Of a DNA stretch of 64,000 nt, positions 1,601 through 48,533 are shown piece after piece. This stretch comes from Crambe crambe. Lineage: Eukaryota; Porifera; Demospongiae; Poecilosclerida; Crambeidae. Every line of letters begins with the position of its first letter. Positions within the stretch are counted from its first letter, which is position 1. The stretch lies in assembly GCA_963924555.1 (NCBI GenBank), contig OZ004596.1:5032139-5096138 (forward strand). Direction: 5' to 3'. The translations under genes were made by a program, and so were the position numbers. The notes below the pieces were generated by a model. The model ran no database searches. It was not told the origin of the DNA and was given only the letters and a program-made list of their open reading frames with translations.

Positions 1601-11005
<9,405 letters not shown>

Positions 11006-13326: not shown

Positions 13327-13401
13327 TTAACCCTAGAACTTAGAGCATGCGCACTTTGACTTGTAGTACCATAAGTGAAAGATAGACCGTGTGAAGTCTA
13401 A

Positions 13402-15155
13402 TGTGATTCAAAAATCCACAGTACTATAGCTGACATAAAAATTCATTATGAAGAGGAGCCTTTCAGAGAAGCACCTCGTGAAAAGAGGAAGAGAGAAGTA
13501 GAGAGCTTAGTCTTCTGTACCATCAAGAGCGAACTAACGACCTTGGCTCTGAGTGACAAGATCAGCAGGAAGTTATCTGAAGTGGTTCTGCTGGCTCACA
13601 ATGCCTTTAAGAGGGGAATGTTTGTTGTTTTTTGAAACTCTATTAGGGAACCCGCTTCCAGAGATGACAGTGTCAACCATGTGTCAGTACATAAACCAGG
13701 TATATATGCTCCAAGATGCCAGAGGAGTGAAGACGAAGGACAATGAATTGACAATGAAAATGTCATCTTTCTGGGAGGATTCCTTCCGCAATATATATCC
13801 TGATTGTTTGGATGGGAGGGGATTCTCGGTGACCAAACAGTTGCTGGCAGAGCAGATAATGACTTGCATCTAGTTTGATAGATACTTCAGATCTCGGTTT
13901 GTGAAACTGATAGTTCACCTGAAAAAAAGACCTGAGGACGAATAAACTACGACAAAAGCTTCCAGAGAGGAGTGGCAAGTGAAGCATTTGCGGGGAGATG
14001 GGAAAACATCCCAGGTCACCTGGCAGAAGTTATGAAGAAAGTTCTTCCATCAAATGTGGTCAAGAATGTGCAGTATGACTTGAAGAGGGACCCTGCCAGG
14101 TACGTGAGCAGCACGAAAAAGATCTGTGACATCATGGGAGACTCGTGCACCGTGTCCTTTCTTCCCACTCGCAGAAGCAACGTCCCTTGTCACTGCAAGT
14201 TGGACACTGAAGCGGTTGCTCAGATATTTGTACCTAACAAGCAGAGACTGGAGATGAGAAAAGTGGCTTGTGACAGAAAGAGAAAGATTTACAACACACT
14301 GGTGTGGAAGAGGATTCTGAAAATGCATATCGTGGACAAGAAGCTAAGGAATTCAGGTTTCAAGTTTCATCACGAGATGTCAACTGATGGTGTTTCTGCA
14401 TCCCTTCTGTACTCCAGGCCAACTTCCTTCTATGACATGAGATCTCCAACGAATCAGCAGAGAGGAGTTATGGAGGCCAACAAAATCTACTGGTCTGGAC
14501 CCAGGAAAGAAGACCATGATGGACGGCGACGGGATATCTTTGAGCAAGGAGAGGAAGAAGTTTGACATCAATGAGATAGAGTCTGAGTTGTTCTCGTGGA
14601 GAACGAATGACTCTGACAAATACTTGATGGCAAAAGCGCGAGTTGACAGACTGACAAGAGATTTTTACCATCTATGTTTTTACAGAGAGAGTAGATGGAG
14701 AAATTGGAAATTTAGGATGTTCTGCATTTAGGATGTTCTGCAATAGAAGAAGCAGTGAGGACAGATTGTTGAATAGAACATAAGATGGTCAAGGAATGAT
14801 CAGATGCCAGGTTGCCATCCATCTCTAAACAAGGGAATCAAGACTCTGCTGGCCAAGATATTTGAAATCGTTGAAGTGGATGAATTCAGAACATCTGTGG
14901 TGTAACACGTGCACAAACCGTCTTGAAAGATATCGCAACAGAAGGGGAAGATTGTCTCATTCCAGACTTTGCTGCACCACCTGCGGACCCTCACTTGGAA
15001 AAGAGAGAAAGAAGAGGTTCGTGGACAGGGACATAAATGCAGCCACTAACATCTTATGGGCTGGAATGTCTCATGAAAGGGCCCATCCATCTCAAGACAA
15101 AGAGCTAGAGTTTATCGCCGCCACATGCTCCATTGCGCTTGCGCAGCAGGGTTAG
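13402..15155 (+). pseudogene. Fanzor (TnpB-like RNA-guided nuclease) pseudogene
   Basis: About 1.75 kb, intron-less in appearance, readable as one Fanzor-like protein only by changing frame several times. Frame 1 (13402-13635) gives the helical N-terminus with VVLLAHNAFKRGM. Frame 2 (about 13636-13945) contains an internal TAG at 13871. Frame 1 resumes (about 13950-14490) with STDGVSASLLYSRP, the segment preceding RuvC-I. Frame 2 (14492 onward) starts GLDPGKKTMMDG, the RuvC-I motif with its Asp. A badly decayed part (14710-14800) should hold RuvC-II. Then VDEFRTS (frame 2) and, in frame 3 (14862-15155), a CNTC...CTTC zinc ribbon and DRDINAATNI, the RuvC-III signature shared by TnpB and Fanzor. 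Functional Fanzors use a guide RNA encoded near their 3' end; I cannot delimit one here. Clear element termini were not found. At least three frameshifts and several stops mean no functional protein. Confidence 0.85.
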
Positions 15156-17870: not shown

Positions 17871-19064
17871 CAGCAAATACATATTATTCATCACCACAGA
17901 AAAGATTCACCGTTTTTAGACATTCCTCACTCAGCACGTAGGTCCAAAGTTATTATTGGGAAGGGAGAATTTTTGCCCCCCCCCCCCCCCCCCCCCACCT
18001 CAAGGAAAAAATTTTGCTAGATTATGAAAGTGCACATGATCATGATACAGATTCTGCCGAAGGACATTTGACGTATTTTCCAGATTAAGGTCATTACATA
18101 ATGATGAATACCACAATTATGTCGCTGTGTGTATTATCATTCCATCATGTGGTGGAGTGGATGGCACACATTACAGGCGCCTTGTGTCTGCCGTTTGAAG
18201 TTGGGATGCTTCCCTCTATATATCCGTGATGAGGTTCCCAAGCAGGAAGATATTGGTTTCTGTGTACCGCCATTTCACATCTCCTTTTTTTGATGGTTAA
18301 GGGTACACAAGACCTTTGGTTAATGGGCGTATCAATTAGATCCTGCCACAAAATATTGATAACAACATGGTGGCTAAAAAAATAGACTTCACTTAATCAA
18401 AGCCATCTCCTGTCTGGTAGCTATATGCTGGCTGCTAGGAAAATGGGTACATAAAACTATTGTGATAGAGTGCTTCTAAGGGATATTATTTCTCTGACAG
18501 TTGGTGTAGCTATAATTTGAGCCAGCCAAGACACCTAAGCCACAGTTTGGGTAAGGCAAAGCGGGGCTATTCCGAACGGTGGGGCTATTCCGTAGGGTCA
18601 AATATTTTCAAAACTCCTCAAGCTTATGAGCTCTAATTTGAAAGGTGTATTCTACTATTATAGTAGATTATATCCTCCAACATTGAGTTCAGAAGCTTCA
18701 GTAGTTTCAGAAATATTTGAACAATACGGAATTACCCGCCATTCGAAATAGCCCCGCTTTACCTTATCAAAGAAAGACACTGAATCTTTGATTAGTCAAC
18801 TCTGTAGCTTCCTCGAGTAAAGAATAGCACAGCATAAAAAGTATAAGGGTGCAAGTGTAGAGTGGGTGGGGCAATTTCAGATGCATACATCATTATGTCT
18901 GACCTCCTCAGATATTCTTATAATCTTGGCATTTTAGAAATAGCTTATAAAAACATTCTCATTGGAGCAAGTTGAAGTGAAACAAATCACTATGCTGGAA
19001 CAATTCCTTGATATGTAGGATGAGTGAGTTTGATGTTAATTGCTTGGTGTCTCCCCTCTGTCAG
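17871..19064. other. Region after INO80B, no clear gene
   Basis: Holds the INO80B 3' region, a poly(C) tract (about 17979-17996) and a MITE (18551-18766). An upstream exon of the gene at 19065 may be hidden here, but I could not identify it. Confidence 0.5.
18551..18766. mobile_element. MITE with TAAGGYAAAGCGGGGCTATT ends
   Basis: The left end GTAAGGCAAAGCGGGGCTAT, then TCCGAACGGTGGG, mirrors the right end CCCGCCATTCGAAATAGCCC, then CGCTTTACCTTA. The inverted termini are about 33 bases with few mismatches, the total is 216 bases, and there is no coding sequence. The left end also carries a second partial GGGGCTATTCCG. Confidence 0.75.
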
Positions 19065-21725: not shown

Positions 21726-39134
<17,409 letters not shown>

Positions 39135-39612
39135 TATAACTTAATTTTCTCGCCGGCCAAACATATGGAACAATGTTTATCGAATATTCACGACCTATAC
39201 AACGTCATTTACCATTGAAATTAAATATTCATAGCATAATATTACGTCACGCGCGCGCTGGTAATTGTATTCATAGCATCAAACCATTAACACCTTGAAC
39301 AGCTGAAACAACTGCAAATCGATCAGGAAGGATGGCCATAAAAGAGGGTTTAGTGCAAGTAGATTGCAGTGCATCTGGAGACAAAAAAAAACTTGTCTCC
39401 TGAAAGCGAGTGAGAATTTTCACAAGTACTGAAGGGTGAATATTATATATAAATACAGCTGAAGATATTGGATCCTAAACAAAATCGAGGTGAGTGCAGG
39501 ATAGGACAGTATTACTCTTGTTGCAAATGCGAGGGCTAGCTATCTCGTTGTGCATGAAAGGTGCAACTATGCTAAACTACAAGAATCAATGATATTTTCT
39601 CTTTTTATTCAG
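39135..39612. promoter_or_regulatory. Probable bidirectional promoter, PIS-like / T-box
   Basis: The two genes are head-to-head with start codons 478 bases apart. The interval contains a CRE-like TTACGTCA (39242-39249) next to a CpG-rich GCGCGCGCTGG. A probable untranslated first exon of the T-box gene ends at a GTGAGTG donor at 39490 and is joined to the acceptor at 39612 just before its ATG. Start sites are inferred. Confidence 0.5.
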
Positions 39613-42600
39613 ATGTCATCATCTAATGAAGAAAGAGATGCAGAAGTAACCATAATGAATGTCACATCTCCAATTTCTTCCACCATCAGCACTTCGTCTT
39701 CTGATTCAGAATTATCCGAAGCACCAGAAACTGCTGCAGATGTCTTCAATCCAGAAGAGGGAGAAAAAGAGCTCCCTTTAATTCCAGAACCGATTACTGC
39801 AAAGCAAAATAATCTTGTGCATTTCCAAAGAGACTTACAAGAAAGTCCACGCTCAACAAGTCCTCTTGAAATAGATGAAGAAGATGAGGAAGAAGAAGAG
39901 AAAGGCTCAGAGTTCGAGTATTCACTCTCCCAAAGGGTCTACTGCAGTCCTTCTTGCAAGATATCGGTAGGTCTGCAGCAGCAGTGCAGTCAACTGTGGG
40001 GGCAGTTTGATAGCATTGGAACAGAGATGATAGTCACCAGAAGAGGAAGGTAAGAAAATTGTGCTCTGTTTGGGCATAGCTAGCTAATGTAGCTGCAAGA
40101 AAAAAAGTTGCGATTTATTATGTGATATAATATAATATTATATATACCAATGAGAGGCCAAAAAACAGTTTAATTATAATGCGTGCAATTCATTGCATGC
40201 ATGCATACAGAGAGGAAAATGCTTCCATTACTAGCTAATAGGACCAACCAAGTGTTGTTGTTGTTTTTTCTGAACAATGATTACCAGTCCACCAGTATAT
40301 AATATGAATTACCTGTTTGTGATTCTTATTGCACCATTGTAATTCACACCTGTGTGTATTCAAAGAGCTTGCTATCAACCACAATTAGGTTAGATGATAG
40401 TAGCTAGTGTATATACTGTACCTCTGCATGCATGCATGACCATGCATGATTGCAAGAAATAAGTGAAACAAAAAGCAATGAAGTAGATAATAATTGGTAT
40501 TATTTTTGTGGGAAACATTACAGGTATGAATGACTGTTTAAGAAAATGTTGCCTCCTGATGTTTTAAAACCCTTTTGGGGTTATTATCCCCCACTTATGT
40601 ATTGTATTCTTAAGACTCCTGTAGTGGTTATGTGAAGCATTACATTGCAAGTACTGTAACTTATAGACAAATTGAAAGTTGTGAAAAGTTTATAAAAGCT
40701 ACCATGGTAATTCTTTCTAAGTGTATAATAACCCTTGCTAAGATGCCTGTGAATCTAGAAACACTTATGCACATGCCAAGTAGGAAAATGTGAATAGGGC
40801 AAGTGAAAAAGCTGATTGTTTTTTAAAGTTATAAGTGTTGATACAAATGTGTTTTGGGCACACCAGTCTACTTCCCTGATTTGACAGTGTATTTTATACT
40901 CAAAGGAATTGTTTCAAGATGTTGTCTTGGTGAGAAATAAAGCTGATAAATTGTTGCAAGGTTGAGGAAAAATAACAAAGAAGGATAGATGAAGTATAAT
41001 GGATAGTGTAGCTTGTCACTTTTTGCAGTTGTGTGTTATGCAAATAGGAAAAGGAGAACTGAAAGTTTGAGACCTTGGTCTTGTGACAAGTGTTAAATTT
41101 CCTGCTAACTTGCATGTACTAGTAGGCTAATATGCATAACAATGGGGAGCTCCTACTAATCATGGGCTTCAATCACTACTATCTGCCTGAATTGGTTGTT
41201 GTCATAACTAGCCAGAAAACAAGCCAGCATTTATAGCAGGTGCTAACCACTTATCATGAAAAATGTGTTATCTTGGAAAGAAGAAGCAACAAATACTACC
41301 ATGCTGTCTGGCTCTACCCTTCTGTACACTATGTCTCTTGTAGCAAGCAGACACTATGTGATATGTATGAGGAGTTCAAGTCTGCAGGAAAAAAATGCAT
41401 TTGAGTGTGAAGATATAATATATTGCTCACTCCAAATATTTGCTAACACACACCAAGTAACTGTCTGCCCAACTCTCTCTGCATGCCTTCTGGTATATTA
41501 GTTCCATGCCAACTCTATCAGACATCTTCATGCTCTCAGGTGTCACTATCCACGCCTTCTGTTCAAGTTTACTTTGGAGAATATTTGTACACTTGGCTGG
41601 ATTCTGTGACAAAGAATCTCCATGGTCATTATCTTAAGCTATCATTCTCCTTTGCGTAAACAGAGGGATTTCATTGAAGATGTGTACAGATCGTTAATTT
41701 GCAATGCCTCAGTAATATAGATTGGTTACTGAAGCTGATAATCATATGCAAGCATATTAAATGAATTCAGTTCATGTATCCTATAATATAATCTTGACAT
41801 TCTTCAGTAGAACACAATTTGTATCATTGTTTATTTTAATACAGAGAAATTGGAAGGCTTAGAATGCACAAGTTATGAGTAAGGTCTAGTGTCAGTTGTT
41901 CCATGGCCAATCTTCAGTTTGAGTTGGCAGCAGATGTCCCCCCCCATCTCACTGACTTCATAATGTATACCAAACTAACATAACATCTGCACTTGCCCTG
42001 TTCATATCCAAACAGTTATTTTGGAACTGTCAACACCATTTGCAAATCCACACTTGATAAGGGCCCCTTTTTTGTGCTATTCCTCCTTCTTTCCTAGTGA
42101 AAAATAACAGCATGCGTGAACAGTAGAGTTAGCATGCACATATTTTGCAATGCCCTACATTAAAGAGCAGTTTATATGAGTTGGTATAAAATAACTTTTC
42201 CTTCGGTCTCTTTGTGCATGGTGCCAGGGTGAGACAAGGAAAAAAAAGAGGAACCACTAAAGCATCCAAGCCACTCACACAGTGCCATCACCACTGAAAG
42301 TTATCATACACACTGTCAGCTGTTGCTGTTGCTTATTGGGTTATGTATGTCGCTTGGTTTTCCCTGCGTGCTCACAGTTTTTATTTGATTGTTTGGGTGC
42401 CTCTTTCCTTGATGCTTTGTGTCCTGATGCTACACAAACTCTCTATCTGTTTTCACTTGACACCTGCATAACATTGTACTCACTATTCTGTACTGAAGAG
42501 GTGGAATTCTGCCCCCCAAAATCTTATGTTACAAGTTATACTGAAATATGTAGTCACAAAATTTCTTGTAATGCTGTGATGTGTTCTTTTGGGGGTAAAC

Positions 42601-47425: not shown

Positions 47426-48533
47426 ATGGAACTCTCTAAATCCCTGAACACTGTCACACCGGAGAGTGCGTCCTCAAGTTTCTTTGGTTCACCTTCCGAG
47501 CCAATTTACACGGAGAATAAACACATTCTGAGTGCTGAGCTCCTCCAGGATGCACTAATGTTATTGGCCTCCAAGAATGAAACAGCTCTCTCTGCCATCC
47601 AAAAATCTACCATGGACAAGGCTAGAGAAAAATGCATGGAATTTAAGAGTGGCTACCCAATTCTCTTTCTCTTTGAGTTGTGTAAACATTTTAAGCTCTC
47701 TCCAGAAGTCCAGTACAGGGCCACTGAGCTGTTTCACCGTTTTATGACAAACCATATCATTGAGCTTCATCAGGTAGCCATAAGTGTCAGTGTAATAACG
47801 AGGTTGTTAGGGACCTTGCAGTTAATACTAGTCTTGTGGGCCAAACCCAATTGTTAGGTGTAATACTATTTTGTTCCATCTACAGCATGTAAGAGCAAGT
47901 GCCACTTCCAGCAGCCCCATACAGTGGAGTGATGTTGAAAAAAGACTGAAGCACCAGATAATTCTTAGAGCTGTATCCTGTGTACAATTGGCCAGCAAAC
48001 TGAGTTCCCACTACCACCTGGTCACCCTCAACCGAGCAAGATCATTTCTCACTTCTTGCGGTTTCCGTTATGCTTTGTCCAGTATCGTCCAATCAGAGAT
48101 AAGAGTTCTGAAGACTTTAGAATACCAAGTCCACCAACCAATCCCCCTTGAATACATTGAGGTTTTACTAGGATCTTTGGTCCATAATGACAAGGCCATA
48201 CCTGTCAAACAACTGCACGCTCTAGCCCTTAAGATTTTGGATGTATTTTACTTGCAGAGGAGGCAAATCCACGATAAACTTAAGCAAATGTTCAATTCTG
48301 TCCAAGGCATTGAAAGAAAAGGTTCTGATTCATTCATGATTGCTGTAGAGATGGATAAGATGCTCCTGGCATCTGCCATTATCACAGCCGCTGGTTTCAT
48401 TCTTGGGCAATCCCACACTAAACATATTTCAAGCCAGCTTTCTGAAATTACATGCATAGTCAGTGATGATATTATCAACTTTGCATCTATTTTACTGGAG
48501 CAAGTATTCACTGAGGATTCTTGTTTTGAATGA
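47426..48533 (+). CDS. CNTD1: Cyclin N-terminal domain-containing protein 1
   Basis: CNTD1/COSA-1 family, cyclin-like proteins that promote maturation of meiotic crossover sites. Two exons, 47426-47773 and 47886-48533, give 331 aa, against about 330 in human. The cyclin fold is supported by conserved blocks: ELLQDALMLLASKNE near the N-terminus, YPILFLFELCKHFKLSPEVQ, AVSCVQLASKLSSHY, SEIRVLKTLEYQVHQPIPLE (cyclin-box helix region) and a C-terminal helical repeat. Tail-to-tail with the TMEM116-like gene (193 bases between stops). Confidence 0.88.

Follow-up and report, generated by a model that had tools for sequence, protein, structure and literature searches.

A Decayed Fanzor1 Element and Its Relatives in the Genome of the Sponge Crambe crambe

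Positions 13327–15155 of the window (the whole stretch of 64,000 nucleotides of Crambe crambe DNA that was analyzed) are occupied by a decayed Fanzor1-only element, a fossil copy that is now incapable of any of the activities proposed below. Very probably, the window once encoded a Fanzor1-type protein that is now broken and that belongs to a family with at least 19 copies in the genome, in which the reading frame of one copy is still uninterrupted and retains the catalytic motifs, the protein of four close copies bears marks of purifying selection, and the two-ended copies have inverted ends of the form TTAA-CCC...GGG-TTAA.

Identification of the Window Copy

The initial annotation had read positions 13402–15155 as a broken Fanzor copy because of its motifs. 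All of the motifs that it named were found, in the right order and spread over three frames (Table 1), and the Fanzor reading is upheld and specified as type 1 by tblastn comparison of the window with an uninterrupted relative, L024, and by the matches of L024 to solved Fanzor1 proteins. A profile search, which had been proposed as a check, gave a divided answer: the window pieces by themselves match no relevant family in Pfam, NCBIfam or PDB, including Fanzor or TnpB, which speaks against the reading, while the genome-mates linked to the window do match, which speaks for it. The identification was therefore made through these genome-mates. Of the extent first given, the end fits a degenerate right end, AGGG-TTAG, that stops at 15155, and the start has to be moved, as the element begins 75 bases further to the left.

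When the L024 frame was compared with the window by tblastn, five pieces matched, the first three of them, joined by BLAST, at an E value of 2.4e-51 and the other two at 8.1e-17 and 5.6e-16; together with the long span of the L024 protein that they cover, these values exclude chance. The 209-residue open piece gave 17 matches in the genome at 15 distinct places, its own locus counted. The closest sister copy, L025 (contig C20, 441 kb), is 91–95% identical in amino acids to this piece and 86% identical to the window DNA across 942 aligned bases, i.e. about 14% divergent, and is broken too.

Table 1. Features of the Fanzor1 element remnant in the window.
Feature	Position	Strand	Basis
Whole element remnant, about 1.83 kb, Fanzor-only	13327..15155	+	Left end TTAACCCTAGAACTT at 13327; degenerate right end AGGG-TTAG to 15155
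Left terminal repeat TTAACCCTAGAACTTA, TTAA target tetramer included	13327..13342	+	14 of the first 15 bases equal to left ends of L024, L026 and L025
Fanzor1 coding remains, five frame-shifted pieces	13483..15086	+	tblastn with L024 frame, residues 30–596
The five pieces individually	13483–13629, 13625–13900, 13954–14505, 14462–14902, 14727–15086	+	tblastn
Longest open piece, 209 codons	13936..14562 (to 14565 with stop)	+	Open reading frame with 17 genome matches
TDGVSASLL, TDG segment preceding RuvC-I	14383..14409	+	Motif read; L024 counterpart TDGVAVSIL
RuvC-I GLDPGK (DPG)	14492..14509	+	Motif read; VDPG in L024, L029 and L034
16-bp tandem duplication, frame-shifting	14710..14741	+	Repeat search
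VDEFRTS, glutamate just ahead of zinc ribbon (Ealt position)	14876..14896	+	Motif read
Zinc ribbon CxxC...CxxC	14901..14984	+	First CxxC (CNTC) from 14901, second within 14970–14984
RuvC-III DRDINAATNI	15024..15053	+	Motif read
Putative degenerate right end, TTAG replacing TTAA	15145..15155	+	9 of 16 bases match left end; position agrees with L024

L024 (L004/L024) lies on the same contig as the window and is uninterrupted for 654 codons from stop to stop, with its first ATG at residue 10. A search of PDB with 632 codons of this frame found SpuFz1 of Spizellomyces punctatus (PDB 8gkh, 6e-24), which is the nearest solved relative, PpaFz1 (1.8e-19) and GtFz1 of Guillardia theta (PDB 9cer, 4.3e-18); the fourth and last match up to an E value of 1 was an antibody chain at 0.67. 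A profile built from nine open pieces, including two of the window's, found the same three proteins (SpuFz1 6.2e-30, GtFz1 2.2e-23, PpaFz1 6.3e-16) and nothing else up to an E value of 1. The NCBIfam TnpB models scored far under their cut-offs on L024, with 32.8 of 100 and 21.9 of 350 bits. As far as sequence can tell, the family thus appears to be related to the solved Fanzor1 proteins rather than to Fanzor2 or TnpB.

The residues of L024 point in the same direction. The Fanzor fingerprint consists of a DPG in RuvC-I and a glutamate six residues ahead of the zinc finger (PMC10711439), and L024 has VDPG at residue 373 and E532 followed by C539. It also conforms to the published Fanzor1 pattern D-X(125,275)-[TS][TS]-X-X-C4-X(5,50)-RD (PMC3627910), with 160 residues from D to TS and 10 residues from C4 to RD. 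The TDG motif, which sits in the WED domain of Fanzor (PMC10711439), is found at residue 332 of L024 and has its counterpart in the window (Table 1). The zinc-ribbon region is matched by Pfam PF07282 in L024 and not in the window piece.

The ends of the window copy are of unequal quality. The pairing of its two ends is equalled by 187 of 20000 random pairs and is hence weak alone, so that the right end rests on its position: the L024 frame stops about 30 bases ahead of the L024 right end, and the right-end position in the window agrees with this. Within the window element no transposase was seen, and Rfam at gathering scores found nothing across the window.

Decay of the Window Copy

The copy had been taken for a fossil with at least three frameshifts and several stops, and an intact relative had been guessed to exist elsewhere in the genome. 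Both proposals stand. Comparison with the L024 frame shows four frame changes between the five pieces and stops in three of them (1, 4 and 2; two of these pieces overlap, so that some stops may be counted twice), and an uninterrupted frame is present at one of the 19 places, that of L024. The spacing between VDEFRTS and the zinc ribbon is disturbed by a frame shift. The dN/dS between the window and L025 is 0.84, an estimate that mixes frames and is a hint only.

Three other readings of the broken frame were weighed. In general, unannotated introns look like broken frames in raw sequence, and the window could on this ground hold an intron-bearing host gene, or another, unrelated gene, whose introns cause the frame changes. 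This reading, now hardly tenable, is refuted by L024: since its single 654-codon frame passes through the corresponding positions, the breaks are mutations and not introns, and they are accounted for by the 16-bp tandem duplication and in-frame stops. Domestication or co-option of the copy would agree with the catalytic motifs still present in the window pieces, and is given almost no credence in view of the four frame changes and the stops, of the DNA divergence from L025 and of a dN/dS that, frame-affected as it is, resembles that of decaying copies. Large DNA viruses carry Fanzors (PMC3627910), and the window copy might accordingly be the relic of a giant-virus insertion carrying one; a family with many copies, shared ends and 19 dispersed places makes such an origin most unlikely. 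The searches for viral relatives argue likewise. An IMG/VR scan with the L024 protein, which detects close relatives only, gave one pattern match and none confirmed, phage records scanned with the 209-residue piece yielded no confirmed relative, and of the 14 window frames with at least 150 residues, the 12 searched in Pfam matched no viral gene. A scan of prokaryotic contigs with the L024 protein gave 64 pattern matches, none of them confirmed. The preferred reading remains that of a fossil Fanzor1 element.

Several other features of the window were recorded. A stretch at 18551–18766 shares 212 bp at 90% identity with a second Fanzor neighborhood (L036, 3993–4203); it is about 76% self-complementary and looks like a small inverted-repeat element. 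Positions 27308–28110 are GC-rich with a strong skew and have overlapping open frames on both strands, two of which were tested and had no Pfam match, and positions 9720–10283 hold a diverged direct-repeat array of 83–86% identity. The frames at 39505–40053, 47832–48533 and 4602–5345 gave weak Pfam matches that stay under the cut-off, to T-box, cyclin and helicase C-terminal domains, and are possibly host exons.

The Family in the Genome

The genome searched has 119 contigs that total 143 Mb. It holds at least 19 Fanzor places, of which 15 came from the 209-residue piece, two more from PF07282 and two more from right-end DNA; tblastn was applied to every one of these 19, with L044 and L051 represented by loci of no more than about 3.1 kb. 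At six genome places the zinc-ribbon family PF07282 (TnpB/Cas12f) is above its cut-off, and the window copy is absent among them. According to DNA similarity, subfamily A consists of L024, L026, L028, L029, L030, L034, L038 and L039 with L044 and a rearranged copy on contig C12, subfamily B of the window and L025, subfamily C of L032 and L035, and subfamily D of L033 and L037, while L027, L031 and L036 are singletons. The dispersal over 19 places with shared ends, which in L024 and L026 are inverted repeats, bears out carriage by a transposable element.

Selection can be read from the young copies. For all six pairs among L024, L026, L028 and L029, dN/dS is 0.21–0.30 at a dS of 0.054–0.085 (residues 1–597, 559–596 codons); these values exclude pairs with L030, L034, L038, L039 and L044 and all pairs over residues 598–654, which are short or frame-affected. 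They indicate that the protein stayed under purifying selection during the spread of subfamily A.

Direct repeats of 0.8–0.9 kb with 89% identity flank the Fanzor copies of L028 (2563–3443 with 7941–8832) and L038 (3322–4097 with 5288–6055) on either side and are perhaps duplicated genes. Contig C119 is a mitochondrial genome of 19,532 bp in which TGA encodes tryptophan (seven in-frame TGA codons in cox1); 22 tRNAs were found in it, together with a gene for ATP synthase subunit c (PF00137, 1.4e-13). Such a set of features is indicative of a demosponge.

Element Ends and Their Likeness to piggyBac

L024 and L026 extend from TTAACCCTAGAACTAC to GTAGTTTAAGGGTTAA, and 14 of 16 bases match between their inverted ends, a pairing that none of 20000 random pairs equalled. 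In L027 the inverted ends match at 12 of 16 bases; its left end was chosen by scanning about 1.9 kb for the best match, so that the figure of 0 in 20000 overstates this copy. TTAA stands at both ends of L024, L026 and L027, and the window has TTAA and TTAG. The right ends of subfamily A have GGGTTAAA in all nine aligned copies, and that of L032 is GTAGTTTAAAGGTTAA. The terminal 15 bases on the left are shared at 14 positions by subfamilies whose proteins are about 42–46% identical.

Genome-wide, these motifs are little or not enriched. With one mismatch allowed, the left 15-mer is found at 20 places in 143 Mb vs. 14 for the reversed control, a slight excess, and four of the 20 are Fanzor copies, the window included. 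Four of the 16 non-Fanzor places were read (L056–L059): L057 is a fragment of subfamily A reduced to the left 46–80 bases, and in the other three the match is never longer than 18 bases. The right motif TTAACCCTTNAAC is found at 34 places vs. 52 for its reversed control and is not over-represented; 11 of the 34 are Fanzor right ends, the source of the motif, among them that of L031, which is not a member of subfamily A.

The moth piggyBac element targets TTAA and has ends starting CCCTAGAA, and the elements described here, with their TTAA borders and similar ends, may be alike in both respects. They differ from piggyBac in having no transposase: no DDD transposase of the PF13843 type was found within the elements, and although the genome has at least 62 PF13843 matches, those listed all start more than 195 kb away from any listed end motif or Fanzor copy. 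No autonomous piggyBac with TTAACCCTAGAAC ends was found in the 1403 bases beside two piggyBac copies (L055, L060, L061), which contain no TTAACCC end. The ends recall piggyBac, and from the ends only a carrier of this class may be proposed. A living element would then depend for its movement on a TTAA-type, piggyBac-like transposase acting in trans, a proposal for and against which the balance is about even and whose main rival is movement by a LINE.

Insertion Scars and Rival Movers

The flanks of several young copies have duplications that are longer than a tetramer. In L026 an exact 14-bp sequence, TTAAAAGAGAGAAA, stands at the right end and again ending 27 bp short of the left end, and in L030 an exact 13-bp sequence, TTAAATCACACAA, stands at the right end and again ending 11 bp short of the truncated left end. 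In L029, 12 bp with one mismatch abut the truncated left end, or 13 bp if the reading is extended by one base into the element. In L024, 13 bp with one mismatch end 135 bp before the left end and came to light only in a wider 3-kb search. All four duplications begin at the right-end TTAA. In L032, 10 exact bp start five bases past TTAA, with a left boundary that was set after looking and is thus post hoc. Among 3000 random windows, 8 scored at least 10, as L026, L029 and L030 do. Three of 12 copies (L026, L030 and L032) have exact matches of 10 bp or more vs. 0.3% of 5000 random windows and one of 132 cross-copy pairs; in the remaining nine, including the window, L024 and L029, the exact matches measure 4 to 7 bp. 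A plain piggyBac insertion predicts TTAA only and leaves the duplications of 12–14 bp unexplained.

The left sides of these copies are irregular. L028, L029 and L030, at different places, share the start GGACCCGG, which lies beside a short hairpin, recognized by eye, in the left end of the intact copies. By eye, the flanks of L026, L029, L030 and L032 also have ragged left ends and filler that resembles nearby sequence. At 3143 and 5466 of L024, a 25-bp repeat with one mismatch abuts the left end and recurs about 134 bp beyond the right end; it was dropped as a target duplication, as the intervening stretch is not duplicated, and is taken as putative copied filler. The idea that the young subfamily loses its left ends preferentially was also set aside: the right end is kept at 10 places and the complete left end at three, and the strongly truncated copies alone, five to one, are too few.

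Movement through RNA by a LINE acting in trans, at least for the young subfamily, is a tentative and rather doubtful explanation of these scars. A transcript ending in ...GGGTT(AAA) would be reverse-transcribed at a nicked TT/AAA, giving duplications of about 11–12 bp with AAA at their start, together with filler and left ends that are ragged or cut short. The four duplications that run from the right-end TTAA, together with the excess of exact matches, agree with this, as do the nine of nine aligned right ends that read TTAAA, beyond plain TTAA. Left truncation is common, with the start shared by L028, L029 and L030, the mismatch in L024 falls in the TT that would be element-derived, and L032 is accounted for. 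Against a LINE stand the left bases common to divergent subfamilies and the ends themselves, which are inverted repeats as DNA transposons have them and whose retention between subfamilies is left unexplained. Furthermore, L024 and L026 begin exactly at the terminal repeat, the right ends lack a long poly-A, the window and L027 show the tetramer alone, and no duplication is seen in L034, L038, L039 and L044, the most strongly truncated of the copies tested.

Alternatively, Fanzor might cut a TTAA-bordered target about 9–10 bases off, after which the element would be copied in from its right end and the left side closed by error-prone joining. Such a process is judged improbable, and with the same low confidence it would mean that insertion in the young subfamily was not by cut-and-paste only and yielded new or restored copies. 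The TTAA-starting duplications, almost constant in length at 12–14 bp, the exactness of the right end and the raggedness and local filler on the left in L026, L029, L030 and perhaps L024 are in its favor. L032 fits it less well, and the published cut distances of GtFz1 (14–17) and SpuFz1 (16–21) exceed the 9–10 bases needed (PMC10432273); in MmeFz2, a Fanzor2, one strand is cut at 9–14 (PMC10432273). For the scars, LINE-type movement is ranked above copying into a Fanzor cut, and neither is taken as shown.

The Right End as a Possible Guide RNA

From what is known of Fanzor1 biochemistry, the protein of a living element would, on balance, bind an RNA of the right end that reads out into the flank and, next to TTAA, cut those copies of the flank in which the element is missing. 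Cutting of element-free sites would in turn favor the keeping or copying of the element. The predicted fold of the right end pairs the terminal GGGTTA with TGACCC upstream, in line with a report that target duplications form part of the RNA scaffold (PMC10711439). For the last 101 bases, the fold z scores against shuffles are -2.02 for L024, -2.68 for L034, -2.29 for L030, -1.39 for L031, -0.13 for L027 and +2.12 for the window, whose 3' end folds worse than shuffles. Covariation at this fold gave pair counts matched by 118 of 500 shuffles, with one pair changed on both sides. When L024 and L034 are compared in windows of 40 bases, identity in the final two is 0.80 and, with some flank, 0.72, against mostly 0.65–0.88 elsewhere, so that there is no excess. 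With neither covariation support nor a conservation peak, a conserved right-end RNA was dropped as evidence.

Comparison with Other Fanzor1 Elements

Spu-1, to which SpuFz1 belongs, is an element of about 2.1 kb with a single Fanzor frame, inverted ends, no transposase and end-only "ghost" copies (PMC10432273), all of which resembles the present family. It differs in its other ends and in its motif CATA, whereas the elements here are bordered by TTAA, and in the number of ghosts, with 134 loci for Spu-1 and here one (L057) among the four of 16 non-Fanzor left-motif places read. GtFz1 requires a TTAA motif (PMC11423790), given elsewhere as TTAAN (PMC10432273), and thus its target is the tetramer that borders the elements here; its locus is described as without inverted repeats (PMC10432273), in contrast to the inverted ends found here.

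Other likenesses are drawn from description. The Fanzor1 elements of ascoviruses and baculoviruses (SFav-1 and others) have 4-bp TTAN duplications, 13-bp inverted ends and no known transposase (PMC3627910). They differ in residing in insect viruses, and their ends could not be assigned to a superfamily by the authors (PMC3627910). As described by Bao and Jurka, MCi-2, a Fanzor1 element of Mucor circinelloides, has duplications of 11–12 bp with the fixed start ATAATTNNNN(N) and a variable 5' region with a constant 3' region (PMC3627910), and its scar is the same kind of signature as that of the young subfamily. MCi-2 differs in having no recognizable inverted repeats and, in one subfamily, a partial Crypton recombinase (PMC3627910). 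If copying into a Fanzor cut were true, the fixed-start duplications and variable 5' ends of MCi-2 would reflect this process too, but at a different motif.

A survey of titles and abstract openings in the Fanzor literature found no sponge or piggyBac-type Fanzor family, and priority is not claimed.

Conclusions

The window copy itself is ordinary, a fossil of a known family. The wider family is moderately interesting for its single full-frame copy, its TTAA ends and its insertion scars. The role of Fanzors for their host elements is an open question in the field (PMC10432273), and one animal genome here offers a graded series that runs from a full-frame copy through near-identical copies with readable scars and older subfamilies to fossils. 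Since the scars begin with the target tetramer of GtFz1, the link between RNA-guided cutting and the spread of the element becomes directly testable.
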